Shown here piece after piece: positions 42,585-64,000 of a DNA stretch of 64,000 bases. Position 1 is the first letter of the stretch; each line of letters starts with the position of its first letter. This DNA is from Achromobacter sp. AONIH1 (GTDB lineage: Bacteria > Pseudomonadota > Gammaproteobacteria > Burkholderiales > Burkholderiaceae_B): positions 5,890,001 to 5,954,000 of the forward strand of contig NZ_CP026124.1 of NCBI RefSeq assembly GCF_002902905.1, written 5' to 3'. Under the pieces are notes generated by a model that ran no database searches, was not told the DNA's origin, and saw only the letters and a list, made by a program, of their open reading frames with translations. The translations under genes and the position numbers were made by a program.

Positions 42585-43073
42585 TCACTTCCCCTCATCC
42601 GCCTCCACCCCCACCATCATCCGCAAACATCGCAGGAACACCGGCCGCAGTTCCTCCGGCAGCGGCGCCAGCACTTGCGCCTCGACCTGCGCGTCGCGCG
42701 GCAGCACGCGCATCAGCAGGTCCAGGCCGGCCTCGGTGATTTCAAGCGCGTAGGCGCGCGCATCCTCGGCCGAGCGCGTGCGCCGCACATAGCCCTTGGC
42801 CGTCATGCGGGCGATCATCTCGGCGAAGGAATTGCGGTCCAGCGCGATCAGTTCGGCGATGCGGCTCTGGGTGGCGCCGGGATGCTGGTGGACGGTGATC
42901 AGCAGGGCCTTCTGCCGGGGTGTCAGGTCCTCGTCGGGAAAGGCCTGCGCGAACAGCGCCTCGGCCCGGAAGTGGGCCCGCCGCAACAGGTGCGACGCCA
43001 CCTGGGTCAGATCGAAGTCCCGCAAGGCGCGGGACGAGGCCGGACGGCGGGCGGTCGGACGGGAGGCGGTCAT
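42585..43073 (-). CDS. MarR-family transcriptional regulator
   Basis: 162 residues from the ATG at 43073, which has GGAAAG four bases upstream; an ATG at 43085 lacks a ribosome site. The winged helix is at about 50-120 (LTPRQKALLITVHQHPGATQ, SRIAELIALDRNSFAEMIAR, AKGYVRRTRSAEDARAYALE). It is divergent from the 3-hydroxyanthranilate catabolic genes. A 12-base palindrome next to the predicted transcription start of that operon is a good operator candidate, so I infer repression relieved by a pathway aromatic such as 3-hydroxyanthranilate. Confidence 0.9.
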   Translation of the reverse strand: MTASRPTARRPASSRALRDFDLTQVASHLLRRAHFRAEALFAQAFPDEDLTPRQKALLITVHQHPGATQSRIAELIALDRNSFAEMIARMTAKGYVRRTRSAEDARAYALEITEAGLDLLMRVLPRDAQVEAQVLAPLPEELRPVFLRCLRMMVGVEADEGK

Positions 43074-43219
43074 CGGGCTTTCCATGAAATAGGCCAGGCG
43101 ATTGTAGGCACAGGCGGCCGACGCCGAAAGACGCTGGCTCCCGGGCCCGGCCCCCGGCCCGTCTCCGCGCGGCCAGGCGACGCCAACGCGGCAGCGCTCG
43201 CCTTGGGCAAAACCCGGCG

Positions 43220-43248
43220 TTGACTTCGCCGGACGCGCCGCCTAAGAT
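43220..43248 (+). promoter_or_regulatory. Sigma-70-type promoter for the aminomuconate operon
   Basis: TTGACT (43220-43225), a 17-base spacer and TAAGAT (43243-43248). Five of six bases match the -35 consensus and four of six the -10, with ideal spacing, and transcription would start about 70 bases before the dehydrogenase gene. Confidence 0.6.
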
Positions 43249-43259
43249 CGTCAATATAG

Positions 43260-43271
43260 TACGTATACGTA
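43260..43271. promoter_or_regulatory. Palindromic operator, probably for the divergent MarR regulator
   Basis: TACGTATACGTA is a perfect 12-base palindrome within an AT-rich stretch with outer AATA/TATT inverted bases. It lies just downstream of the predicted promoter, where bound repressor would block transcription. Confidence 0.6.
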
Positions 43272-43324
43272 TTTTATTGCCGGTACCCGCCACGCCGCGC
43301 GACCTGTTCCCAGGAATTCCGATC

Positions 43325-44782
43325 ATGACGATCCGCCAGCTACGCAATTACATCGACGGCCGTTTCGAAGACGGCGCCTCGACCTTCGACAAGCACAGCC
43401 CGGTCGATCACGCGCTGATCGCCCAGGTCCACGAGGCCAGCCGCGAGCAGGTCGACCGCGCCGTCGCCGCCGCAAGGCGCGCCTTGCCGGCCTGGGCCGC
43501 CCTGCCGGTGGCCGCGCGCACCGATCAGCTGCTGGCGCTGGCCGACGGCATCACCCGCCGCTTCGACGACTTCCTGCAGGCCGAGATCGGCGACACCGGC
43601 AAGCCGGTGTCCTGGGCCAGCCAGATCGACATCCCGCGCGGGGCCGCGAATTTCCGCGCCTTCGCCGAGCTGGCGCGCACGCTGGACATGGAAAGCTACA
43701 TGACCGACACGCCCGACGGCCGGCAGGCGCTGAACTACGCGTACCGCAAGCCGCTGGGCGCGGTCGGCGTGATCTCGCCGTGGAACCTGCCGCTGCTGCT
43801 GCTGACCTGGAAGGTGGCGCCGGCGCTGGCCTTCGGCAACACCGTCATCATGAAACCGTCGGAAGTGACGCCGTCCACCGCGACCCTGCTGGCCGAGGTC
43901 GCGCACGAGGTGGGCCTGCCGCCCGGCGTGCTCAACCTGACGCATGGCTTCGGCCCGGGTTCGGCGGGTGAATTCATCACCACGCATCCCGATATCGACG
44001 GCATCACCTTCACCGGCGAATCGGCCACCGGAGCGGCCATCATGCGCGCCGTGGCGCCGGGCGTGAAGCCCGTGTCCTTCGAGCTGGGCGGCAAGAACGC
44101 CGCGCTGGTGTTCGCCGACGCCGACTTCGAGGCCGCCGTCGACGGCACCGCGCGCTCGGTCTTCGCCAACTGCGGCCAGGTCTGCCTGTGCACCGAGCGG
44201 GTCTATGTCGAGCGCCCGATCTACGAGCGCTTCGTCGCCGCGCTGGCCGAGCGCGCGCGGGCGCTGCGCATCGGCTGGCCTGGCGATCCGCAGACCGGCA
44301 TGGGCCCGCTGGTGTCGCGCGAGCATCGCGACAAGGTGCTGGCGTATTTCGCGCTGGCGCGCGAGGAAGGCGCCACCGTCGTCACCGGCGGCGGCGTGCC
44401 CATGTTCGGCGACGCCCGCGACGCCGGCGCCTACGTGGAACCGACCATCTGGACCGGCCTGCCCGAGACCGCGCGCTGCATCAAGGAGGAAGTGTTCGGC
44501 CCGGTCTGCCACGTGGCGCCGTTCGACACCGAGGAAGAAGCCATCCGCCTGGCCAACGACAGCCGCTACGGCCTGGCCGCCGCCGTCTGGACCCAGAACC
44601 TGACGCGCGGCCACCGCGTGGCGCAGTCGATGAAGGCGGGACTGGCCTGGGTCAACTGCTGGTTCCTGCGCGACCTGCGCACGCCCTTCGGCGGCAGCGG
44701 CCTGTCCGGCATCGGCCGCGAAGGCGGCCGCCACTCGCTGCACTTCTACACCGAACCCACCAACGTCTGCATCAAGCTGTGA
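43325..44782 (+). CDS. nbaE: 2-aminomuconate 6-semialdehyde dehydrogenase
   Basis: 485 residues, aldehyde dehydrogenase superfamily. NAD-binding and active-site elements are [20 protein letters not shown] (Asn), [39 protein letters not shown] (general-base Glu) and [17 protein letters not shown] (nucleophilic Cys). It belongs to the 2-hydroxymuconic/2-aminomuconic semialdehyde group. It oxidises the product of ACMS decarboxylase to 2-aminomuconate. The next gene, a RidA-type deaminase, acts on that product and begins 25 bases downstream; the dioxygenase and decarboxylase lie 2-4 kb on. This context supports the amino rather than hydroxy substrate. Confidence 0.87.
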
Positions 44783-44807
44783 TGCCTCACTCCTCCAAGG
44801 ACCCCTC

Positions 44808-45239
44808 ATGATCCAGTCCCCCGTCAATGCCACCGTCGTCGCCGGCAAGGCCACGCCGCGCGGCAAGTATCCCCACATCAAGCGCGCCGGCGATTTCCTG
44901 TTCGTCTCCGGCACCAGCTCGCGCCTGCCCGACAACCGCATCGCCGGCGCCGAGGTCGACGCCATGGGCACCGCCACGCTCGACATCCGCGCGCAGACCC
45001 GCGCCGTGATCGAGAACATCCGCGACATCCTGGCCAGCGCCGGCGCCGGCCTGGCCGACGTGGTCGAGATCGGTACTTTCCTGGTCAACATGAACGACTT
45101 CGGTGGCTACAATCAGGTCTACGGCGAGTTCTTCGACGCCGATGGGCCGGCGCGCACAACAGTGGCGGTCCATCAGCTGCCGCACCCGCAATTGCTGATT
45201 GAAATCAAGGCGGTCGCCTACAAACCGCTGGCGCGCTAG
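44808..45239 (+). CDS. nbaF: RidA-family 2-aminomuconate deaminase
   Basis: 143 residues, RidA/YjgF/UK114 fold. Conserved segments are [38 protein letters not shown], and the family Arg in [20 protein letters not shown]. Within aminomuconate clusters such proteins hydrolyse 2-aminomuconate to 4-oxalocrotonate and ammonia. AAGGA lies six bases before the ATG. It directly follows the semialdehyde dehydrogenase. The later enzymes (oxalocrotonate decarboxylase, hydratase, aldolase) are not in this window. Confidence 0.85.
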
Positions 45240-45332
45240 CGGACAGGCGCGGCGATGGCGCCAGACCGTCTTCCGGCCCTTCCTTCGGAACAGGATCGCC
45301 GCCCCGGCCCGCAAGCCGGGACGGCCGCGCGC

Positions 45333-46307
45333 ATGTCGAACTTCCGCATCACGCCCAACGCGCTCAGCCACAAGCTGAAGCTGCACCAGCTGCAGATCTT
45401 CGAACGCGTGCTGGCGCGCCGCTCGCTGTCGCGCGCCGCCAGCGAGATGCACCTGACCCAGCCCACCGTCACCAAGGCCATCCACGATCTGGAGGCCTTC
45501 TTCGGCGCGACGCTGTTCGAGCGCTCCAACCGTGGCGTCACGCCGACCGAGCTGGCGCTGGTGCTGGGCCGGCGCGTGCACGCCATGATGGCCGAGATCC
45601 GCTACATGGCCGACGACATCGACGCGGTGCTCGGCGGCGCCAGCGGCCACGTGGTCGTGGGCACGCTGATCGCGGCCTCGGCCAAGCTGCTGCCCGAGGC
45701 CATCGCGCGGCTGATGACCGAGCATCCCGGCATCCAGGTCACGGTGCGCGAGGGCCCGTCGGCGCAGCTGCTGCCGGCGCTGGCCACGGGCGACGTCGAC
45801 ATCGTGGTCGGGCGGCTGCCGGGCGCCGACATGGCCTCGATCTCGGGCGTGGCCGTCGACCATCACAAGCTGTACCGCGAGGACCTTTGCCTGGTGGCCG
45901 GCGCCAGCCATCCGCTGGCCGGGGCCGCGCGGGTGTCGCTGGCCGAGCTGGCGGACCACATCTGGATCCTGCCCGCCCCCACCTCGCCGCTGCGCGCCTC
46001 GATCGAGCGCAGCTTCTTCGACGCCGGCGTGCGCCTGCCCACGCGTCACGTCGAATCGCTGTCGCTGCTGACCAATATCGGCATCCTGATGCACAGCGAC
46101 GCGCTGGCGCTGATGCCCTACGACGCCGCGGCCCAGTTCCTGGCCATGGGCGTCCTGGCGCGCCTGCCCACCGACGCCTTCGGCGCGTTCGGCGACGTCG
46201 GCTATTCGATCCGCGCCGACCGGCCCTTGACGCCGGCCTGCCTGCGGCTGGTGGACTACCTGAAGCGGGTCGCGGCGCAGCGCGACGCCAGTCCGGACCC
46301 CGCCTGA
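45333..46307 (+). CDS. LysR-family transcriptional regulator
   Basis: 324 residues from the ATG at 45333. The N-terminal winged helix-turn-helix is canonical (LQIFERVLARRSLSRAASEM, HLTQPTVTKAIHDLEAFFGA). A two-lobed effector-binding domain follows (GHVVVGTLIAASAKLLPEAI, GDVDIVVGRLPGADMASISG). It sits inside the aromatic-degradation cluster between the deaminase and the dioxygenase genes, on the same strand. It probably responds to a pathway metabolite and acts on the 150-base gap in front of the dioxygenase gene. Relatives control gallate, protocatechuate or nitrobenzoate genes. Confidence 0.9.
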   Translation: MSNFRITPNALSHKLKLHQLQIFERVLARRSLSRAASEMHLTQPTVTKAIHDLEAFFGATLFERSNRGVTPTELALVLGRRVHAMMAEIRYMADDIDAVLGGASGHVVVGTLIAASAKLLPEAIARLMTEHPGIQVTVREGPSAQLLPALATGDVDIVVGRLPGADMASISGVAVDHHKLYREDLCLVAGASHPLAGAARVSLAELADHIWILPAPTSPLRASIERSFFDAGVRLPTRHVESLSLLTNIGILMHSDALALMPYDAAAQFLAMGVLARLPTDAFGAFGDVGYSIRADRPLTPACLRLVDYLKRVAAQRDASPDPA

Positions 46308-54077: not shown

Positions 54078-54235
54078 TGTCACTCCAGCCGCCTCGATAG
54101 CCCCGCCGCCGTCCGGCACGGGCTTCCGAGCGACGGCACATGCCCCGCCAGCCCTGGCGGTCGGCCCCAATCTCGAACCCGAACATTCCGATCACTCGGA
54201 AGGACGTCGCTCGTCCTTTCCCAGCCGCAGGAGCT

Positions 54236-56527
54236 ATGCAGTCCGCCATGGAAAAACAAGCAGCAATGATGGTCACCAAGCGTGATGGGCGTATGGAGCC
54301 CATCGATCTGGACAAGATCCACCGCGTCATCGACTGGGCCGCCAACGGCCTGGAGAACGTCTCGGTGTCGCAGGTGGAAATGCGTTCGCATATCCAGTTC
54401 TACGACGGCATCCGCACCGACGCCATCCACGAGACCATCATCAAGTCCGCCGCGGACCTGATTTCCGAGGAAACGCCCAACTACCAGTACCTGGCCGCGC
54501 GCCTGGCGATCTTCCACCTGCGCAAGATCGCCTACGGCCAGTTCGAGCCGCCGCACCTGTACGACCACGTGCGCAACCTGACCGAACAGGGCAAGTACGA
54601 CGCGCACCTGCTGGCCGACTACAGCCGCGAGGAATTCGACGAGCTGAACGGCTACATCAACCACTGGCGCGACATGAACTTCGCCTACGCCGCGGTCAAG
54701 CAGATGGAGGGCAAGTACCTGATCCAGAACCGCGTCACCAAGCGCATCTACGAAAGCCCGCAGTTCCTGTACCTGCTGGTGGCGATGTGCCTGTTCGCGA
54801 AGTACCCCGCGCAGACGCGCCTGGGCTACGTCAAGCGCTTCTACGACGCGGTGTCGCGCTTCAAGATCTCGCTGCCCACGCCCATCATGGCGGGCGTGCG
54901 CACGCCGATGCGCCAGTTCAGCTCCTGCGTGCTGATCGAATGCGACGACGATCTGGACAGCGTCAACGCCACCACCAGCGCCATCGTCAAGTACGTGTCG
55001 CAGCGCGCCGGCATCGGCATCAACGGCGGCCGCATCCGCGCCCTGGGCAGCGAGATCCGTGGCGGCGAAGCGCTGCACACCGGCTGCCTGCCCTTCTTCA
55101 AGATGTTCCAGGCGGCGGTCAAGTCGTGCTCGCAAGGCGGCGTGCGCGGCGGCGCGGCCACCCTGTTCTACCCGCTGTGGCACCTGGAAGTCGAATCGCT
55201 GCTGGTGCTCAAGAACAACCGCGGCGTCGAGGAAAACCGCATCCGTCACCTGGACTACGGCGTGCAGGTCAACCGCCTGCTGTACCAGCGCCTGATCAAG
55301 TCGCAGGACATCACGCTGTTCTCGCCGCACGACACCCCGGGCCTGTACGAAGCCTTCTTCGCCGACCAGGACGAGTTCGAGCGCCTGTACCTGCAATACG
55401 AGCAGAATCCCGCCATCCGCAAGCGCAGCCTGCCGGCCGTGGAACTGTTCTCGCTGATGATGCAGGAGCGCGCCAGCACCGGCCGCATCTACATCCAGAA
55501 CGTCGACCACTGCAACACGCACAGCCCGTTCGATCCCCAGGTCGCGCCGGTGCGCCAGTCGAACCTGTGCATGGAAATCGCGCTGCCGACCAAGGCGCTG
55601 AGCGATGTCAACGGCCCGGACGGCGAAATCGCGCTGTGCACGCTGTCGGCCTTCAACCTGGGCGCGCTGGAAACGCTGGACGAACTGGAAGGCCTGGCCG
55701 ACCTGGCCGTGCGCGCGCTCGACGCGCTGCTCGACTACCAGGGCTACCCGATCCCGGCGGCGCGCGCCGCCACCATGAAGCGCCGCCCGCTGGGCGTGGG
55801 CGTGATCAACTACGCCTACTACCTGGCCAAGCACGGCACGCGCTATTCCGAACCGGCCGCGCTGGGCCTGACGCACCGCACCTTCGAAGCCATCCAGTAC
55901 TACCTGCTGAAGGCCTCGTCGCAGCTGGCGCGCGAGTTCGGCCCCTGCTCGGGTTTCAACGAAACCACCTACAGCGCCGGCGTGCTGCCGATCGACAGCT
56001 ACAAGAAGGACGTGGACGGCATCTGCGCCGAACCGCTGCGCCTGGACTGGGAAGCGCTGCGCGCCGACATCCGCGAGCACGGCCTGCGCAACTCCACGCT
56101 GACGGCGCTGATGCCCTCGGAAACGTCCAGCCAGATCGCCAACGCCACCAACGGCATCGAACCGCCGCGCGGCCTGGTGTCGGTCAAGCAGTCCAAGGAC
56201 GGCATCCTGCGCCAGGTGGTGCCGGAATTCGAGCGCCTGAAGGACAAGTACGAACTGCTGTGGCAGATGTCCGGCAATGAGTCCTACCTGAAGCTGGTCG
56301 GCATCATGCAGAAGTTCGTCGACCAGTCGATCTCGGCCAACACCAACTACGACCCGCAGCGCTACGAAGGCGGCCGCGTGCCGATGAAGCAGCTGCTCAA
56401 GGACCTGCTGCTGGCCTACAAGTACGGCCTGAAGACCCTGTACTACCACAACACCCGCGACGGCGCCGACGATGCGCACGGCGAAGTGCAGGACGACGGC
56501 TGCGCCGGCGGCGCCTGCAAGATCTGA
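54236..56527 (+). CDS. nrdA: Class Ia ribonucleotide reductase, large subunit
   Basis: 763 residues from the ATG at 54236; 54248 is possible. An N-terminal ATP-cone (about 10-100: [20 protein letters not shown]) gives dATP inhibition. Catalytic residues are all there: the redox Cys in QFSSCVLIE, Asn-x-Cys-x-Glu in [12 protein letters not shown], the second redox Cys in [13 protein letters not shown], and the C-terminal shuttle pair [10 protein letters not shown]. It reduces ribonucleoside diphosphates to deoxy forms. nrdB follows after 16 bases. Two NrdR boxes lie upstream. Confidence 0.97.
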
Positions 56528-56543
56528 CGAAAACATCCGCATC

Positions 56544-57677
56544 ATGGCTTACAGCATTTTTTCCCAGACCAGCAACAACCCGTTGACCGAACCGATGTTC
56601 TTCGGCCAGCCGGTCAACGTCGCGCGCTACGACCAGCAGAAATACGCGATCTTCGAGAAGCTGATCGAAAAGCAGCTGTCGTTCTTCTGGCGGCCCGAAG
56701 AGGTCGACATCTCGCAGGACCGCCTGGACTACCAGGGTCTGCCCGAGCATGAGAAGCACATCTTCATCAGCAACCTGAAGTACCAGACGCTGCTGGATTC
56801 GATCCAGGGCCGCAGCCCCAACGTCGCCTTCCTGCCGCTGGTGTCGCTGCCCGAGCTGGAGACCTGGATCGAGACCTGGGCGTTCTCGGAGACGATCCAC
56901 TCGCGCTCGTACACGCACATCATCCGCAACATCGTCCCCGATCCCTCGGTGATCTTCGACGACATCGTCAGCAACGAGAACATCCGGCTGCGCGCGGCCG
57001 ACATCGCCTCGTACTACGACGACCTGATCGGCCCGTCCATGCTGTACGCGCAGCTGGGCGTGGGCGAGCACGTCATCAACGGCAAGACGCATCGCATCTC
57101 GGAATACGAGCTGAAGAAGAAGACGTATCTGTGCCTGATGAGCGTGAACATCCTGGAAGCCATCCGCTTCTACGTCAGCTTCGCCTGCTCGTTCGCCTTC
57201 GCGGAACGCAAGCTGATGGAAGGCAACGCCAAGATCATCCGCCTGATCGCCCGCGACGAGGCGCTGCACCTGACCGGCACGCAGCACCTGCTGAACATCA
57301 TGCGCTCGGGCCAGGACGACCCGGACTTCGCCAAGATCGCGCGCGAGACCGAGCAGGAATGCTTCGAGATGTTCAAGCGCGCCGCCACCCAGGAAAAGCT
57401 CTGGGCCGAGTACCTGTTCCGCGACGGCTCCATGATCGGCCTGAACAAGGACATCCTGAGCCAGTACGTCGAGTACATCACCAACCTGCGCATGACGGCC
57501 GTGGGCCTGGCGCCGGCCTTCGCCCAGGTCAAGCACAACCCGATCCCGTGGATCAACACCTGGCTGTCCTCGGACACCGTGCAGGTCGCGCCGCAGGAAG
57601 TGGAACTGAGCTCCTACCTGGTCGGCCAGATCGACGCCCAGGTATCGCCCGACGACCTGAGCGACATCGAGCTGTGA
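56544..57677 (+). CDS. nrdB: Class Ia ribonucleotide reductase, radical-generating small subunit
   Basis: 377 residues. The diiron and tyrosyl-radical site is complete: [14 protein letters not shown] (Glu, His and the radical Tyr) and [14 protein letters not shown] (Glu, His). The mixed helical ferritin-like fold covers the middle of the protein, and the C-terminal tail ends DLSDIEL. It supplies the radical to NrdA. Its stop codon overlaps the GTG start of the ferredoxin gene. Confidence 0.97.
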
Positions 57678-57964
57678 CGACCGTCTCCACGTCCGACGCC
57701 ACGTTCCGCCTGCAAGAGGGCGAGACGCTGCTGGAGGGCCTGGAGCGCACCGGGCACGATGTCGAGTACCAGTGCCGCAGCGGCTACTGCGGCACGTGCC
57801 GGCTGAAGCTGGAGGCCGGCAAAGTGTCGTACACGACGGCACCGCTGGCCTTCGTCGCGCCGGGCGAGGTGCTGCCCTGCTGCTGCCGGCCCGACGGCCC
57901 CGTCGCCGTCGCGTGCTGGCTGCGGCAGGCGGACGAGGTCTTGGATCTCGACCTGTCCTGCTAG
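57674..57964 (+). CDS. yfaE: 2Fe-2S ferredoxin for NrdB cofactor maintenance (YfaE-like)
   Basis: 96 residues, GTG start overlapping the nrdB stop (GTGA). The plant-type 2Fe-2S cluster motif is clear: CRSGYCGTC plus the fourth Cys in EVLPCCCRP. YfaE-type ferredoxins reduce the diferric centre of NrdB so that the tyrosyl radical can be regenerated. Its TAG stop (57962-57964) directly touches the terminal inverted repeat of a small mobile-like element, so the insertion may have trimmed or replaced the original 3' flank. Confidence 0.92.
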
Positions 57965-58122: not shown

Positions 58123-58378
58123 ATAGGCGCGCGCCAGCGCGCCCCAATCCTCTCAAAGTCCACAATATAGACCAACAAAAATAAATTGTTGACTTTGAGA
58201 TTAATTGAGCCAGAATTAAGACAAATAGAACAAAAGAATGGTCCACTTAATGGACCTTGATTTCCAACGCGCTACCCGGGACGATCTGCACGACTGGCGG
58301 CAGAAGCCGTATGGTGTCAATGCGTGCGGGCCTCCGTTCCTCCTTAATCCGGCTTCAATTAAGAGGAGAGTGGGCACA
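58123..58378 (+). promoter_or_regulatory. AT-rich promoter and operator region of the biosynthetic cluster
   Basis: Bases 58140-58260 are much more AT-rich than anything nearby. A 16-base inverted repeat with one mismatch spans 58151-58166 and 58185-58200 (TCTCAAAGTC...GACTTTGAGA), a likely operator. A promoter candidate is TTGACT (58189-58194), 17 bases, AGAATT (58212-58217), which overlaps the right arm. A second dyad, GGTCCA-CTTAA-TGGACC, lies at 58240-58256. The upstream reading frame from 58238 stays open into the dioxygenase gene but lacks a ribosome site. Confidence 0.55.
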
Positions 58379-59350
58379 ATGGCTAGTCAAGCTCTGACCT
58401 GCAACGGGCATCCGGTGGATGCCCAGGCCAGCTACTTTGGCGAACTGCAGGCATCCAACGATCTCTTGCGCGACCCGATCGCGCTGAAACGGCGGGCCGA
58501 GGAAAACGGCTACCTGTTCATCCGGCGACTCATACCGCCTTCCACGGTCCTGGAGGCGCGGCGGGAGATCCTGCTGAAATACGCCACCGTCGGCGAAATC
58601 GACAACACCCGCCACGACGTCATGGACGGCGTGCTGCGCGGCTCCAGCTACATCACCCAGATCAACTTGGATGCCTTCGTCACCTCGCTGCGCACCGGCG
58701 CGTGCTATGAACGCGTGGTACTCCACCCCAACCTGCTGGCGCTGTATGCCGACCTGATGGGCGGCCCCGTCGTGCCTTTCGACTTCCGCTGGCCCCGCAT
58801 GATGCGAACCGGTGAAGGCTGTGGCATACATGCCGACATCCCATACATCGGCCGCGGCACGCGGCGCGTCTGGACCTCGTGGATTCCGCTGGGCGACGTG
58901 CCGCTGGAGAACGGCCCCCTGATCATCCTGGAAAACAGCCATCGCCATGCGGCGCTGGATGGATACTTCGCCACCGACGCGGCGAAGCAACGCCTGGGCT
59001 GGCTGGAACGCGACCCCGTCGCGCTCCAGGCGCGGCTGGGCGGACGCTGGCTCTCGACCCATTTCGAGCCAGGCGACGTCCTGTGCTTCAGCGGCCACAT
59101 GGTGCATGGCGCGCTGGACAACAACCACCCCGGCGGCCGTTGCCGCCTGAGTTCCGACACCCGCTATCAGCTGCGGGACGACCAGCGCGACGAACGCTGG
59201 TTCGGCAGCGTCGCCAATCCCTACGGCGGCGACTACGAACGCGGCAAGCGGGTGTTCTACCCCGGACTCATCTCCTGCGCCGATGGCAATACCGAGCTCA
59301 AGGAAGAGTGGAAGCCGGTGGATGAAGACGGCCGCCTGCTCTTGAACTGA
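58379..59350 (+). CDS. Phytanoyl-CoA dioxygenase (PhyH)-family Fe(II)/2-oxoglutarate oxygenase
   Basis: 323 residues; 58379 is chosen because GAGGAGAG lies nine bases upstream, although an in-frame ATG at 58238 exists. The iron triad is visible: His151-x-Asp153 in GCGIHADIPYI and distal His243 in GHMVHGALDN. A 2-oxoglutarate-binding Arg follows in GGRCRLSSDTRYQ. The family hydroxylates unactivated carbons in secondary metabolism, including free amino acids. As first gene of a cluster with arginine-type enzymes it probably hydroxylates an arginine, methylarginine or ornithine-like molecule; the substrate is inferred only. Confidence 0.87.
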   Translation: MASQALTCNGHPVDAQASYFGELQASNDLLRDPIALKRRAEENGYLFIRRLIPPSTVLEARREILLKYATVGEIDNTRHDVMDGVLRGSSYITQINLDAFVTSLRTGACYERVVLHPNLLALYADLMGGPVVPFDFRWPRMMRTGEGCGIHADIPYIGRGTRRVWTSWIPLGDVPLENGPLIILENSHRHAALDGYFATDAAKQRLGWLERDPVALQARLGGRWLSTHFEPGDVLCFSGHMVHGALDNNHPGGRCRLSSDTRYQLRDDQRDERWFGSVANPYGGDYERGKRVFYPGLISCADGNTELKEEWKPVDEDGRLLLN

Positions 59351-59436
59351 CCGCGCCGCGCCCTCGGCGCGGCATGCCTGGCACAACGGCGCCTGCGGCG
59401 CCTATCCCATCACGTCCCTACCTATCAAGGACCTCC

Positions 59437-60459
59437 ATGATGAACATCGAGCAAGATCTTGTTGCCGCGCTGGAACCCATCCGCCAGATGACGCTGGCCA
59501 TCTGCGTCAACCACTTCTTCGAGACCGGCGTCTACCGAAAGCTGGAAGCGGGAGAATGCGATCTGGACACGCTGTCGCGCAGCCTGGACCTCGAGCGCGC
59601 CCGACTCGGCGGCCTGCTGGGCTACCTGCGCAACGAGAACATCGTCTCGCACGACAAGGGCGTGTATGCCCTGACCGACAAGGCGCGCCTGCTGGGCCGA
59701 TATTCGGCCTGGTACACCATGCTGGTCGGCGGCTACACCGAGACCTTCGTCCAGGTGGGCGAGTGCCTGAAAGGCCAAGGCAAGTGGGCCACGCGGGACG
59801 TCGGCAAGGTCGGCATCGGCAGCTGCGGCATCAGCCATTACGACGCGATTCCACTTACCCAGCGCCTGATGGCCAAGATGGACACGCCAGCCAGGACGCT
59901 GCTGGACCTGGGCTGCGGCAACGCCATGTACCTGGTCGAATTCTGCAAGACCATGCCGCAACTGCGCGCCTATGGCGTTGAGCCCAGCCGCGATGCCTGT
60001 CTCTCGGCGGAACGCATCATCGCCGCGGAAGGACTGTCCGACCGCATCAAGGTCATCAACAAGAGCGTGCGCGACTTCCTGGAAGGCAAGGAAGACCTGA
60101 AGCCGGACGTCATGGTGCTGGGTTTCGTGCTGCATGAGATCCTGGGCCAGGAAGGCAAGGCCGGCGTCATCGACTTCCTGAAGACCGTGACCGCCCGCTA
60201 TCCGGCGATAAACCTGATCGTCATCGAGGTGGACAACCAGGCCGCCAATCCGACCATCATGGAACACGGGCTGGCCAAGGCCTACTACAACCCGTACTAC
60301 CTGATCCACGAATTCACCGAGCAGCGGCTCATGACCGATGCCTGGTGGCAAAGCCTGTACGAGGAAGCCGGTCTGAAGATCGTCAACCATGACTATCCGG
60401 ACGAAGCAGTGGACTCCACCCGGCTCGAGATCGGCTACCTGCTCAAGAGAAGGGGCTGA
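59437..60459 (+). CDS. SAM-dependent C-methyltransferase, 2-ketoarginine methyltransferase-like
   Basis: 340 residues. The N-terminal winged-helix dimerisation domain (about 10-85: LTLAICVNHFFETGVYRKLE, LGGLLGYLRNENIVSHDKGV) and C-terminal Rossmann domain match the plant-O-methyltransferase-like group. SAM motif I is TLLDLGCGNAMYLVEF (about 150). This group contains 2-oxo-acid C-methyltransferases such as MrsA, which methylates 2-ketoarginine in the 3-methylarginine pathway of Pseudomonas syringae, and enzymes for 3-methylglutamate and 3-methylphenylalanine. Arginase and aminotransferase neighbours favour 2-ketoarginine. AAGGA precedes the ATG; the next gene begins two bases after its stop. 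Confidence 0.75.
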   Translation: MMNIEQDLVAALEPIRQMTLAICVNHFFETGVYRKLEAGECDLDTLSRSLDLERARLGGLLGYLRNENIVSHDKGVYALTDKARLLGRYSAWYTMLVGGYTETFVQVGECLKGQGKWATRDVGKVGIGSCGISHYDAIPLTQRLMAKMDTPARTLLDLGCGNAMYLVEFCKTMPQLRAYGVEPSRDACLSAERIIAAEGLSDRIKVINKSVRDFLEGKEDLKPDVMVLGFVLHEILGQEGKAGVIDFLKTVTARYPAINLIVIEVDNQAANPTIMEHGLAKAYYNPYYLIHEFTEQRLMTDAWWQSLYEEAGLKIVNHDYPDEAVDSTRLEIGYLLKRRG

Positions 60460-60460
60460 C

Positions 60461-61612
60461 ATGCGGATCACCAGCGAACACTCGCCGCTGTCGTTCCTGT
60501 CGCAGCGCCTGGCCTACGCCAGCCGGAACCGGATACGGGCCATCAACCTGGTCGAGAATGTGCCGGTCTGGCCGGCGCGCTTCCGGCCCGAGCTGCACGA
60601 ACGCGCGCAGCCGGACATCTTCCACTACGCCCCGGCCGAGGGCGACGAAACGCTGCTGCGGCTTCTGCTAGAGCGCGAGAACGCGCGGGCGGGCGAGGAG
60701 GACGGCACGCTGACGACCCGGAACATCCTCGTCACCAACGGCGCCACGCAAGGCCTGTCCCTGCTGCTGGGTCTGCTGGATCCTCGGCGGCCAACGATCC
60801 TTTGCCAATCGCCGGCCTTCATCGGCATAACCGCCCTGATGCAGGCGCGCGGCTACATCGTCAGGCACTGCCCCGTCGGCACCGACCTGGTCGACTGGAT
60901 GAGCAGCACGCTGTCGGACGACGTGGCCGCCATCTACGTGAACACCCCTCATAATCCCACCGGCTCGGTCCTGCCGGCCGCCTCCCTGCAGGCGCTCATC
61001 GACCGCGCCGGCATGCACGGCGCACGCGTCATCGTCGACGCGGTGTATGAGGATTTCGTCTTTGACGGCCAGTGCTGCCACCTGCCGCGCCAGCCCGACT
61101 GCGAGCATGTCGCCGTTCTCAATTCGGTCAGCAAGAATTTCGGCGCCCCCGGCTTGCGGATCGGCTGGATCGTCGCGGCCGCCAAGGACGTCGCCCAGCT
61201 GACCGGGGACCTCGAACGCGAATGCGTCGCCGTCTGCTCCGACGCCCAGGTGCGCGCCGCCGAGATCGTATCCCGCAGCAACGGACCGCTAGTCGCCCAT
61301 GTGGACGCAGCGCGCGGCGCCGTGTTCGACATGCTGCGCGCGATTCCAGGGCTGGAGTTCGAGACCTGCTCGGCCGGCACGCAGGTGATGGCCCACAGCG
61401 ATGTCGATGACGTCGAGGCCTTCGCCGATTTCGCGCTGGCGCGCTACGGGCTGATCCTGGCCACCTCCCGGAACTACTCCGGCATGCGCTCGCAATCCAT
61501 CCGCATCCCGCTCGGACAGGAGCGCGACAGGATCGCCCAGGGCCTGGACATGCTGGACAGCAGCATCCGCAGCTACCGCGAGACGGTCCACGCCGTCCGC
61601 AGGAGCGCTTGA
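60461..61612 (+). CDS. Class I/II PLP-dependent aminotransferase
   Basis: 383 residues, aspartate-aminotransferase fold. Signatures are VTNGATQGLSLLLGLL (phosphate-binding loop), YVNTPHNPTGSVLPAASLQA (Asn stacking region), VIVDAVYEDFVFDG (Asp) and LNSVSKNFGAPGLRIGW with the PLP Lys. The substrate-carboxylate Arg is likely in SQSIRIPLG. In the 3-methylarginine pathway an aminotransferase makes 2-ketoarginine and reaminates the methylated keto acid, and this enzyme could do both here. A PLP arginine oxidase like MppP is an alternative that sequence reading cannot exclude. Confidence 0.88.
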   Translation: MRITSEHSPLSFLSQRLAYASRNRIRAINLVENVPVWPARFRPELHERAQPDIFHYAPAEGDETLLRLLLERENARAGEEDGTLTTRNILVTNGATQGLSLLLGLLDPRRPTILCQSPAFIGITALMQARGYIVRHCPVGTDLVDWMSSTLSDDVAAIYVNTPHNPTGSVLPAASLQALIDRAGMHGARVIVDAVYEDFVFDGQCCHLPRQPDCEHVAVLNSVSKNFGAPGLRIGWIVAAAKDVAQLTGDLERECVAVCSDAQVRAAEIVSRSNGPLVAHVDAARGAVFDMLRAIPGLEFETCSAGTQVMAHSDVDDVEAFADFALARYGLILATSRNYSGMRSQSIRIPLGQERDRIAQGLDMLDSSIRSYRETVHAVRRSA

Positions 61613-61613
61613 C

Positions 61614-62819
61614 GTGCGCCGCGCCGATCAATGCATCGCCCAGGAAAAGCGCTGGAGCGCGGACAACTACGCCAGCCTGCCCGTCGTCCTGTCCAGGGGC
61701 CTGGGCGCCGAAGCCTGGGACATTGAAGGCAAGCGTTACCTGGACTTCATGGGCGCCTACTCGGCCGCCAATCTCGGGCACTGCCATCCCCGTATCGTGC
61801 GAGCCCTGACCGAGCAGGCCTGCACGCTTGGCGTCGTCTCGCGGGCATTCCATAACGACAAGCTCGGGGCGTTCCTGCAGAAGGCCTGCGAAACCACCGG
61901 CATGGATCGCGCCCTGCCCATGAACTCCGGCGCCGAAGCGGTGGAAACCGCGTTGAAGGCCGCGCGGAAATGGGCCTACGAGGTCAAGGGCGTGCCCGAC
62001 GGCAAGGCCGAGATCATCTGCTGCGCGCGCAATTTCCACGGCAGGACCACGGGCGTCATTTCCATGTCCTCTTCCGACCGGGCGCGCGCGGGCTACGGAC
62101 CGTACCTGGGCGGATTCAGGAACATCCCGTTCGGCGACGCCGATGCGCTGGCGGCGGCCATCGGGCCACACACCGCGGCATTCCTGGTCGAGCCCATCCA
62201 GGGCGAGGCCGGCATCATCGTGCCGCCGCCGGGCTATCTGCGGGCATGCGCGGACCTGTGCCGCCGCCACAACGTGCTCTTCATCGCCGACGAGATACAG
62301 ACCGGACTGGGACGCGCCGGCCACGTGCTCGCGTGCCAGGAGGACGATGCGCGTCCCGACGGCGTTGTGCTTGGCAAGGCGCTGGGCGGCGGCATGGTCC
62401 CGGTTTCCCTGTTCCTGGCGCGGCGCGACGTGATGGACGTGTTCCGCCCGGGAGACCACGGCAGCACGTTCGGCGGCTATCCTCTGGCGGCTGCGGTGGG
62501 CCACGAAGCGCTCTGTGTGATGGAAGACGAACAGCTTTGCCAACGGTCCCGGGAAACCGGCGGCGCGCTGAAGGCCGGCTTGCAGGCCGTCGCTGGCGAC
62601 GCGCTGCGCGACGTGCGCGGCCGCGGCCTGATGATCGGCGTGGAGCTGGCCGGCGCCGACGCCCCCGCCGGGCGCCTGGCCCATGCGCTGCTCGAGCGCG
62701 GCGTGCTGTGCAAAAACGTGGATGAGCACACCATCCGCCTGGCCCCGCCCCTCAACATCCCCCCTGCCCTGGTCGAGGAATTTCTGCATGTCTTTGCCCA
62801 TGAACTCACCCGTCTTTGA
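61614..62819 (+). CDS. Class III aminotransferase, ornithine aminotransferase-like
   Basis: 401 residues, GTG start with AGGAG eight bases upstream. Class III landmarks are MNSGAEAVETALKAARKWAY, ARNFHGRTTGVISMSS, VEPIQGEAGIIVPPPGYL, FIADEIQTGLGRAG and the PLP Lys in PDGVVLGKALGGGMVPVSLF. The sequence follows ornithine delta-aminotransferases (opening QCIAQEKRWSADNYASLPVV). With an arginase next door it can convert ornithine, or a methylated or hydroxylated ornithine, to the semialdehyde, which would cyclise to a pyrroline. Its 3' end overlaps the arginase start by 32 bases. Confidence 0.9.
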   Translation: MRRADQCIAQEKRWSADNYASLPVVLSRGLGAEAWDIEGKRYLDFMGAYSAANLGHCHPRIVRALTEQACTLGVVSRAFHNDKLGAFLQKACETTGMDRALPMNSGAEAVETALKAARKWAYEVKGVPDGKAEIICCARNFHGRTTGVISMSSSDRARAGYGPYLGGFRNIPFGDADALAAAIGPHTAAFLVEPIQGEAGIIVPPPGYLRACADLCRRHNVLFIADEIQTGLGRAGHVLACQEDDARPDGVVLGKALGGGMVPVSLFLARRDVMDVFRPGDHGSTFGGYPLAAAVGHEALCVMEDEQLCQRSRETGGALKAGLQAVAGDALRDVRGRGLMIGVELAGADAPAGRLAHALLERGVLCKNVDEHTIRLAPPLNIPPALVEEFLHVFAHELTRL

Positions 62820-63720
62820 CGCGCCCGCGCTGCGGATGCTGGCCTACGCCTGTGGCATCGCGGGCCAGTTCGCCGGCAGCCGCGATGGCCCATCGGTCTT
62901 CCGCGAGGCGCTGTCGACACTGCCGGCGCTCGCCCGCGACATCAGCTGGGACAGCTGGATCGAAGACAGCCGCCCCTTTTCCCAGATCGGCCCCCAGGAG
63001 GCCCTACGGGCCGTCACCGGCCTGGCCGCGGGCCTCGCGGCCGATGCTCGCGCCGCAGCCCTGCGCGGAGGCTTTCCAGTGCTGATCGGCGGCGACCACT
63101 CAGCCGCGGCCGGCTACTGGTCAGGCATCGCGCAGGCGCATCAGCCGCGCGGCGATATCGGACTGGTGTGGATAGACGCGCACATGGACAGCCACACGCC
63201 CTTCACCAGCCCCAATGGCTATGTACACGGCATGCCCCTGGCGGCATTGCTCGGCCATGGCGATCCGGGCCTGACGGGCCTGCTGTCGCCGCGTGCCAAG
63301 CTGCGCCCGGATCGCGTCTGCCTGATCGGGACCCGCGATTTCGAGCCGGAGGAAGCGGCCCTGCTGCGCACGCTGGACGTGCGCGTCTTCTATATGGATG
63401 AGGTCCGGTCCCGAGGGCTGGAACGCGTTCTGGACGACGCGCTGGAGATCGTCGGACGCGCGCCCGCCGGCTTCGGCGTCACACTGGACCTGGACGGCAT
63501 CGAACCCGGCGATGCCCCCGGGGTCAGCACGCCTTCCCCGAACGGGCTGCGCAGCGACGCGCTGCTTCCCGGCCTTCGCCGCCTGCTGCGCGACCGCCGC
63601 TGCGTGGGCCTGGAAATTTCGGAGTTCAATCCTTCCGAGGACAAGGATGGACGCACGCTGGACTTCATGCTGGCCGTGGTAGCGAACCTTGTGCGCGACA
63701 GAGCGGCGGGCGCGTCATGA
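62788..63720 (+). CDS. Arginase/agmatinase-family ureohydrolase
   Basis: 310 residues from the ATG at 62788 (GAGGAA eight bases upstream; ATG at 62800 possible). Dimanganese ligands are recognisable: VLIGGDHSAAAGYW (His), VWIDAHMDSHTP (Asp-x-His-x-x-Asp type) and VTLDLDGIEPGDAPG (Asp-x-Asp). The usual SPNGYVHGMPLA substrate loop is present. It has arginase rather than agmatinase flavour and releases urea from arginine or a modified arginine. It overlaps the aminotransferase gene and is itself overlapped by the exporter gene (ATGA), so the cluster is one tight operon. Confidence 0.85.
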   Translation: MSLPMNSPVFDAPALRMLAYACGIAGQFAGSRDGPSVFREALSTLPALARDISWDSWIEDSRPFSQIGPQEALRAVTGLAAGLAADARAAALRGGFPVLIGGDHSAAAGYWSGIAQAHQPRGDIGLVWIDAHMDSHTPFTSPNGYVHGMPLAALLGHGDPGLTGLLSPRAKLRPDRVCLIGTRDFEPEEAALLRTLDVRVFYMDEVRSRGLERVLDDALEIVGRAPAGFGVTLDLDGIEPGDAPGVSTPSPNGLRSDALLPGLRRLLRDRRCVGLEISEFNPSEDKDGRTLDFMLAVVANLVRDRAAGAS

Positions 63721-64000
63721 AGATCTCGCTTCCGCTGGGCATCGCCCTGGTGATGATGGGCACGCACGGCTATGGCCTGTTTCTGTTCGGCGCCATCTTG
63801 CCCACGCTGCAGGCCCGCCATGGTTTTGACTACACCTTTGCCGGCATGGCCTCGGCCACGCTCAATACTGCCTACATGACGGGCGCGTTGCTGCTCGGCG
63901 CCTTCGGCCGCCGCCTGCCGGCGAAACGCTGGTTCGTGCTGTCGGTATCGTGCTGCGCGCTGCTGCTGGCGCTGCTGCCGCTGGCTCCCGGTCCGTATGC
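63717..64000 (+). CDS. MFS transporter, N-terminal part (cut by the window end)
   Basis: 94 residues are visible. Three hydrophobic helices (LPLGIALVMMGTHGYGLFLF, AGMASATLNTAYMTGALLLG, WFVLSVSCCALLLALLPLAP) and the short loop GAFGRRLPAKRW between helices 2 and 3 suggest the major facilitator superfamily. It overlaps the arginase stop by four bases, so it belongs to the biosynthetic operon and is the natural candidate for export of, or self-protection from, the product. Confidence 0.8.
   Translation, partial: MKISLPLGIALVMMGTHGYGLFLFGAILPTLQARHGFDYTFAGMASATLNTAYMTGALLLGAFGRRLPAKRWFVLSVSCCALLLALLPLAPGPY

Follow-up and report, generated by a model that had tools for sequence, protein, structure and literature searches.

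A 64,000-nucleotide stretch of the Achromobacter sp. AONIH1 chromosome (bases 5890001-5954000 of a 6.65 Mb genome in a single contig; hereafter the window) runs at its far end into a nine-gene operon with a total extent of 58379-67794, all of whose genes point in the same direction. Behind a gene for a PhyH-type oxygenase stand mrsA, encoding a 2-ketoarginine methyltransferase, and an mrsB-like aminotransferase gene, followed by genes for an ornithine delta-aminotransferase (OAT), an arginase-family ureohydrolase, a transporter of the major facilitator superfamily (MFS), a second methyltransferase (MT2), a flavin adenine dinucleotide (FAD)-dependent amine oxidase and a ProC-like reductase. We propose, with even confidence and no more, that from arginine this operon produces a free C-methylated amino or imino acid that is not a peptide and is exported from the cell, with an end product that is more likely to be of the proline type than of the arginine or ornithine type.

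The types of reaction in the proposed route follow from the enzyme families. The MrsB-like enzyme would convert arginine to 2-ketoarginine, which MrsA would methylate at C3 at the expense of S-adenosylmethionine (SAM); the resulting 3-methyl-2-ketoarginine would then receive its amino group back from the MrsB-like enzyme to give 3-methylarginine. The arginase would split the latter into 3-methylornithine and urea, and the OAT, acting on the delta carbon, would produce 3-methylglutamate-5-semialdehyde, which would self-cyclise to 3-methyl-1-pyrroline-5-carboxylate and be reduced by the ProC-like protein to a 3-methylproline-type imino acid. In one order or another, the PhyH protein is predicted to hydroxylate the skeleton, MT2 to methylate a nitrogen and the FAD enzyme to oxidise an amine, and the MFS protein would export the product, probably an antimetabolite. 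The presence of an arginase and an OAT speaks for 3-methylarginine as an intermediate rather than the end product, and the genes added downstream likely move the product from the arginine or ornithine type to the proline type. The initial annotation of the window had envisaged a methylated arginine- or ornithine-type amino acid, with methyl-pyrroline or methylproline as a further branch: the branch is now backed by the ProC-like gene that ends the operon, whereas the arginine- or ornithine-type product has become the less likely outcome. As for the role, growth suppression by 3-methylarginine is on record for a pathovar of P. syringae (PMC3662646), which makes an exported antimetabolite a fair guess by analogy.

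A nine-gene operon and its MrsA front end

The first intergenic gap, between phyH and mrsA, measures 89 bases, and the following ones +1, +1, -20, -4, -17, -4 and -11 (the -20 with the arginase start set at 62800); such short gaps and overlaps suggest a single transcript with coupled translation. All nine products exceed at least one Pfam cut-off (MrsA narrowly, with 30.5 vs 30), which, together with the conservation of the nine-gene order in a second genome, marks the operon as more than a run of chance frames. The six genes originally named as an operon are all present on the + strand in the order given for them, and inspection of the DNA beyond 64 kb adds MT2, the FAD amine oxidase and the ProC-like gene, none of which points to another product class. 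Promoter-like matches number two (one per strand) in 11 kb vs 0.9 expected (sd 1.1), which is not significant.

The second genome is that of Achromobacter sp. UMC71 (L040, NZ_LZZT01000053), where the complete set of nine genes is found again, in unchanged order and at a different genomic site, with protein identities of 77.6% (PhyH), 73.6% (MrsA), 66.0% (MrsB-like), 70.6% (OAT), 59.9% (arginase), 60.1% (MFS), 63.2% (MT2), 63.5% (FAD oxidase) and 53.3% (ProC-like, the least conserved). It came out of the comparison of MrsA neighbourhoods that the initial annotation had called for, namely a non-exhaustive scan of species genomes with an MrsA alignment plus one of two short peptide patterns, which yielded at least 34 loci. 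UMC71 is the one locus of the 34 with the full nine-gene order; the other 33, some of which reach contig ends, have no phyH, mfs, mt2, dao or proC match at E<=1e-8. MrsA itself scores above its cut-off in two of 268 genomes of the family, and the host genome is alone in having it among 399 genomes of the order (E<=1e-20) and among 398 of the phylum (E<=1e-40). Thus, the operon is rare. DNA alignments longer than 200 bases between the surroundings of the window and the UMC71 locus comprise 58399-67473, at 72-74% identity, and a block at 42603-46283, at 86.6%, and nothing else. The operon directly follows this latter block in UMC71 and lies 12 kb further on in the window. The MrsA tree pairs the window protein, as sister, with its counterpart from Hydrogenophaga sp. 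5NK40-0174 (support 96/95, on a rather long end branch) and not with that of UMC71. The different placement beside a shared block and the tree together suggest that the operon was transferred as a unit.

The call of MrsA as a 2-ketoarginine methyltransferase, made at the outset, is well supported by its passing of the curated equivalog model TIGR04543 (449.9 vs 425 bits) and by a match of 355.6 bits to the solved structures 8r4z/8rvs/8rwm, which bear this name in the PDB. Comparison of six MrsAs of the arginase-linked clade described below with 18 from outside it (Nannocystis included) found 74 residues invariant in the 18, of which 66 are unchanged in all six and eight altered in at least one; with Nannocystis left out, 68 of 76 are kept. 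This conservation speaks for an unchanged MrsA reaction in the clade. At seven positions (e.g., Met17 and Trp302), the six share a residue that none of the 18 others has. For the aminotransferase, TIGR04544 is by far the best family, the next scoring 118.5 bits, and the enzyme would be expected to handle both the arginine/2-ketoarginine and the 3-methyl-2-ketoarginine/3-methylarginine pairs. These two genes share the operon with the MFS transporter, which is presumably an exporter, its direction being predicted.

The arginase and its linkage to MrsA

The arginase clears PF00491 with ease (173.2 bits vs a cut-off of 22), and the motifs GGDHS, DAHxD and DxD, which we take to hold the metal ligands, are intact in the alignment. 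Its substrate loop reads DSHTPFTSPNGYVHG, as against DVNTAETSPSGNIHG in the B. caldovelox-type arginase 1cev. This loop presumably binds the alpha-carboxylate in classical arginases, with Asn130, Ser137 and Asn139 as the residues concerned in human arginase 1, and at the Asn139-equivalent place, where classical arginases have Asn, the window protein has Tyr. In the arginase tree, it belongs to a 13-row clade (the GY clade; support 100/96) that takes in the Nannocystis and other MrsA-linked GY arginases and in which 11 rows have Tyr at this place, one Trp and one Asn. Two classical arginases, L075 from the same genome and L048 from Paenibacillus, fall outside it. These features point to a ureohydrolase that may be adapted to a substrate altered beside the alpha carbon, as 3-methylarginine is, and we propose the window arginase as a candidate dedicated 3-methylarginine amidinohydrolase.

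Linkage between mrsA and such an arginase goes beyond the two Achromobacter operons, and is seen in part through equal contig sizes. Among the 120 MrsA homologues listed of 371, six other full-length proteins have 58-74% identity to that of the window (P0002, P0003 from Hydrogenophaga sp. 5NK40-0174, and P0005-P0008); for five of them, a close GY arginase is listed with an identical longest-contig size (10887, 654509, 92722, 32964 and 22368 bases), and the contig of the sixth is merely 1,684 bases long. Since the five include P0002, which nearly duplicates UMC71, this amounts to strong but indirect evidence for same-contig linkage in four sources beyond UMC71 and Nannocystis. Relatives of the FAD oxidase, among the best 120 listed, share two of the five contig sizes (654509 and 92722). 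In the MrsA tree, one clade (100/99) unites seven of the eight arginase-linked rows with P0005, left unscored because of its short contig; the MrsA of Nannocystis sp. RBIL2 (Myxococcota, L053 7513-21006), whose gene lies within 5 kb of that of a GY-clade arginase, falls elsewhere. The Nannocystis locus also codes for a UbiE-type methyltransferase, a haem-oxygenase-like protein, an aminotransferase and a resistance-nodulation-division (RND) pump, with weaker matches to a second haem-oxygenase-like protein and, below the Pfam cut-off, to an ATP-grasp protein.

An arginase and an OAT are the standard pair of arginine catabolism and also occur together near mrsAB in Paenibacillus oleatilyticus, and a catabolic or detoxifying operon, in which they degrade 3-methylarginine or arginine imported by the MFS protein, has accordingly to be considered. 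It is, however, barely credible for an operon that spends SAM on synthesis through MrsA and MT2 and has an oxygenase alongside, in a genome with four further arginase-family genes, among them L075 with a classical loop, and with an arginase that stands apart in the tree from both L075 and its Paenibacillus counterpart.

Proposed ring formation, tailoring and alternative products

With regard to the biosynthetic route preferred here, the OAT exceeds the TIGR01885 cut-off (490.4 vs 378.4 bits), falls under that of the narrower NF003145 (496.9 vs 656) and matches the structure 3ruy with 422 bits; of 14 matches in the genome, it is the only one above the OAT cut-off. It keeps NY, AYSA, HGRT and EPIQGEAG, which we take to contact ornithine, with AS in place of the HP adjoining NY. 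The dimerisation domain of the ProC-like protein passes PF14748 (49 vs 25). The PhyH protein has, by eye, the HxD plus distal H (IHADIPYIG; HMVHG) that is presumably the usual metal site of PhyH-type oxygenases, and is weakly related to PtlH (2rdn, 45.6 bits). For MT2, the match to 6m82 reaches 137.6 bits and the nearest solved relatives are N,N-dimethyltransferases, by which family resemblance it is a putative TylM1-like N-methyltransferase. The predicted model of the FAD oxidase (pLDDT 92) has a fold of the glycine/sarcosine/proline oxidase type, its listed fold matches including NikD, sarcosine oxidase with proline and thioproline bound, and L-proline dehydrogenase; it also resembles amino-acid and D-arginine dehydrogenases.

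These fold matches, along with the presence of both an oxygenase and an amine oxidase in the operon, raise the alternative that the PhyH and FAD enzymes go on to oxidise the ring, turning a methylpyrrolidine into an aromatic methylpyrrole-carboxylate or a similar unsaturated compound. We consider this improbable, as the matches are superfamily-wide and fix no substrate, and the reductase in the same operon works in the opposite direction.

Several observations weigh against the route to a 3-methylproline-type product as a whole. At the front end, the aminotransferase is MrsB-like by its best family, and falls just short of the TIGR04544 cut-off (346.4 vs 350 bits), as does its UMC71 orthologue (338.5), the MrsB of Pseudomonas (L052) reaching 564.8; we file it as MrsB-like rather than as MrsB proper. 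The arginase call stands on PF00491 and the metal motifs, and the protein misses the TIGR01229 equivalog (152.2 vs 227.6; the UMC71 copy has 165.7). The loop of this family varies widely across the homologues listed: its His is present in all 95 with readable motifs among the best 120, and is therefore uninformative, and the Tyr occurs in 14 of the 95, a number that includes several close duplicates of the window protein. Within the GY clade, P0298 has the Asn and P0253 the Trp, the Tyr-bearing P0296 falls outside the clade, and five of the 13 rows have no known link to MrsA. Three of the five size-matched contigs have no FAD oxidase among the 120 listed, so the tailoring genes are not demonstrated on those contigs. 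The reduction, hydroxylation, N-methylation and amine oxidation steps are putative, being drawn from family membership. Finally, the ProC-like protein lies under the TIGR00112 cut-off (104.3 vs 196.75) and has APGSYT where 1-pyrroline-5-carboxylate (P5C) reductases have SPGGTT or SPGGAT, on account of which its substrate may be something other than a P5C.

That non-canonical motif, the standing of the ProC-like protein as the least conserved of the nine and the likeness of the FAD oxidase to amino-acid and D-arginine dehydrogenases, besides proline dehydrogenases, would all suit an acyclic product—a hydroxylated and/or N-methylated 3-methylornithine (or 3-methylarginine), with the OAT, ProC-like protein and FAD oxidase serving a side product or stereochemistry. 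On balance this is unlikely, if still worth keeping in sight: the products of OATs cyclise spontaneously, the sole OAT of the genome above the curated cut-off is kept in this very operon, and the nine genes remain together in a second genome.

A third type of product would be a building block for a peptide or conjugate assembled elsewhere in the genome. Its attraction lies in other MrsA loci, where the gene stands beside nonribosomal peptide synthetase (NRPS) genes (Paenibacillus oleatilyticus), adjoins an ATP-grasp L-amino-acid ligase gene (Paraburkholderia) or is near the weak, sub-cut-off ATP-grasp match noted above (Nannocystis). However, a search for NRPS condensation domains, which did not extend to adenylation domains or ATP-grasp ligases in the rest of the genome, found none in either of the two operon-bearing genomes (the host and the UMC71-type G029), whereas the same search had matches in four of 14 control genomes, three of them above the cut-off. 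Thus, the lack of a peptide synthetase reported for the window extends genome-wide for condensation domains, and a peptide product by that route is disfavoured. As, moreover, no ligase is among the operon genes and the operon has its own transporter, we regard a building block as very improbable.

Relation to known pathways and neighbouring genes

The closest known system is the 3-methylarginine (mrs) cluster, reportedly described from Pseudomonas syringae pv. syringae 22d/93 by Braun and colleagues in 2010. At a related locus of Pseudomonas sp. KUIN-1 (L052), an mrsA relative and the adjacent mrsB are followed by a LysE exporter gene. The two systems have in common a 2-ketoarginine methyltransferase with an adjacent aminotransferase, with about 50% identity for MrsA and about 38% for MrsB; the window operon has an MFS protein in place of LysE and adds PhyH, OAT, arginase, MT2, the FAD oxidase and the ProC-like protein. 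The beta-methylarginine of arginomycin is likewise said, after Feng and co-workers in 2014, to arise by C-methylation of 2-ketoarginine and then transamination; arginomycin is a peptidyl nucleoside that keeps the guanidine, which the window pathway would lose at the arginase. The rocF-rocD pair of arginine catabolism has the same two reaction types, and the window OAT passes the OAT equivalog, but the window arginase, with its changed substrate loop, falls in a different clade and is coupled to MrsA, and the operon has no arginine permease or regulator.

Parallels to the later steps come from two proline analogues. In the GriE/GriF/GriH pathway (griselimycin and mycoplanecin), 4-methylproline arises when a methylated glutamate-5-semialdehyde closes into a ring that ProC or GriH then reduces (PMC10817943), the same succession of semialdehyde, cyclisation and reduction as is proposed for the window operon; there, however, 5-hydroxylated leucine supplies the skeleton and the product goes into peptides, whereas here the skeleton would come from C-methylation of arginine and bear a 3-methyl group, in a genome with no condensation domain. 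The 3-methylproline of polyoxypeptin is hydroxylated, like the proposed product, but made from L-isoleucine (PMC3943440), not by an MrsA, arginase or OAT route. Among the matches listed in searches of open-licence PMC papers, we found no description of the arginase-OAT-ProC extension with an oxygenase, an N-methyltransferase and an FAD oxidase, in keeping with the first impression that this exact gene set is undescribed. Hence, we regard the operon as a variant of the 3-methylarginine cluster, in which the front end is known and the extension with its tailoring genes appears to be new.

A bolder version of the preferred reading, which we hold tentatively and at clearly less than even confidence, is that of a new 3-methylproline route through a 3-methylarginine-specific GY arginase clade and a dedicated OAT, leading in a few scattered bacteria to a tailored, exported proline-mimic antimetabolite. 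If true, a small set of genes would turn arginine into chiral 3-methylornithine and 3-methylproline without any NRPS; the arginase subfamily would act on a substrate new to its family, and Achromobacter and Hydrogenophaga would probably make a free-amino-acid antimetabolite that is itself new. MrsA would then be an entry enzyme to several pathways, beyond 3-methylarginine alone.

Table 1. Genes of the operon and its upstream region (window coordinates, continued past the window edge)
Feature	Position	Strand	Evidence
AT-rich upstream region, possible operon promoter	58160..58378	+	weak sigma-70-like match TTGACT-16-CAGAAT at 58189-58216
phyH, PhyH-type Fe(II)/2-oxoglutarate oxygenase, 323 aa	58379..59350	+	PF05721 46.3 bits
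mrsA, 2-ketoarginine (C3) methyltransferase, 339-340 aa	59437/59440..60459	+	TIGR04543 449.9 bits
mrsB-like class I/II aminotransferase, 383 aa	60461..61612	+	TIGR04544 346.4 bits
oat, ornithine delta-aminotransferase, GTG start	61614..62819	+	TIGR01885 490.4 bits
Arginase-family ureohydrolase, 306-310 aa	62788/62800..63720	+	PF00491 173.2 bits
mfs, MFS transporter, putative exporter	63717..64916 (crosses window edge at 64000)	+	PF07690 76.2 bits
MT2, second methyltransferase, TylM1-like	64900..65628 (past window)	+	Methyltransf_23/25 46.2/45.6 bits
FAD amine oxidase	65625..66965 (past window)	+	PF01266 112.9 bits
ProC-like reductase	66955..67794 (past window)	+	PF14748 49 bits

Upstream of the operon, the window has nrdA-nrdB (named by eye) and then a ferredoxin-like frame at 54140-57963; the best counterpart of nrdB in the same-genus G029 genome is just 28% identical, and this flank may be strain-specific. 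A tRNA-Ser(gct) called by ARAGORN at 56141-56222 (-) lies inside the long nrdA frame and is probably a false positive. Downstream, a VOC/glyoxalase gene (67880-68320) begins 85 bases after the end of proC and has no match at the UMC71 operon locus. About 12 kb downstream of the operon (L007 6179-9524), a class III aminotransferase gene, unlinked to it, is followed by uncharacterised open reading frames (ORFs). In UMC71, the operon is followed by a ketol-acid reductoisomerase gene (KARI domains; L040 18430-20999), beyond which are, by eye, two small ORFs and one resembling short-chain dehydrogenases/reductases (SDR).

Among the other MrsA loci, that of Paenibacillus oleatilyticus (L048 9974-21006) has mrsA-mrsB followed directly by the NRPS genes, an ATP-binding cassette (ABC) transporter and a class III aminotransferase. 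In Paraburkholderia sp. Ac-20340 (L054 9956-14418), the genes after mrsA-mrsB code for the ATP-grasp L-amino-acid ligase and then an EamA transporter, and the whole may be a 3-methylarginine dipeptide cluster.

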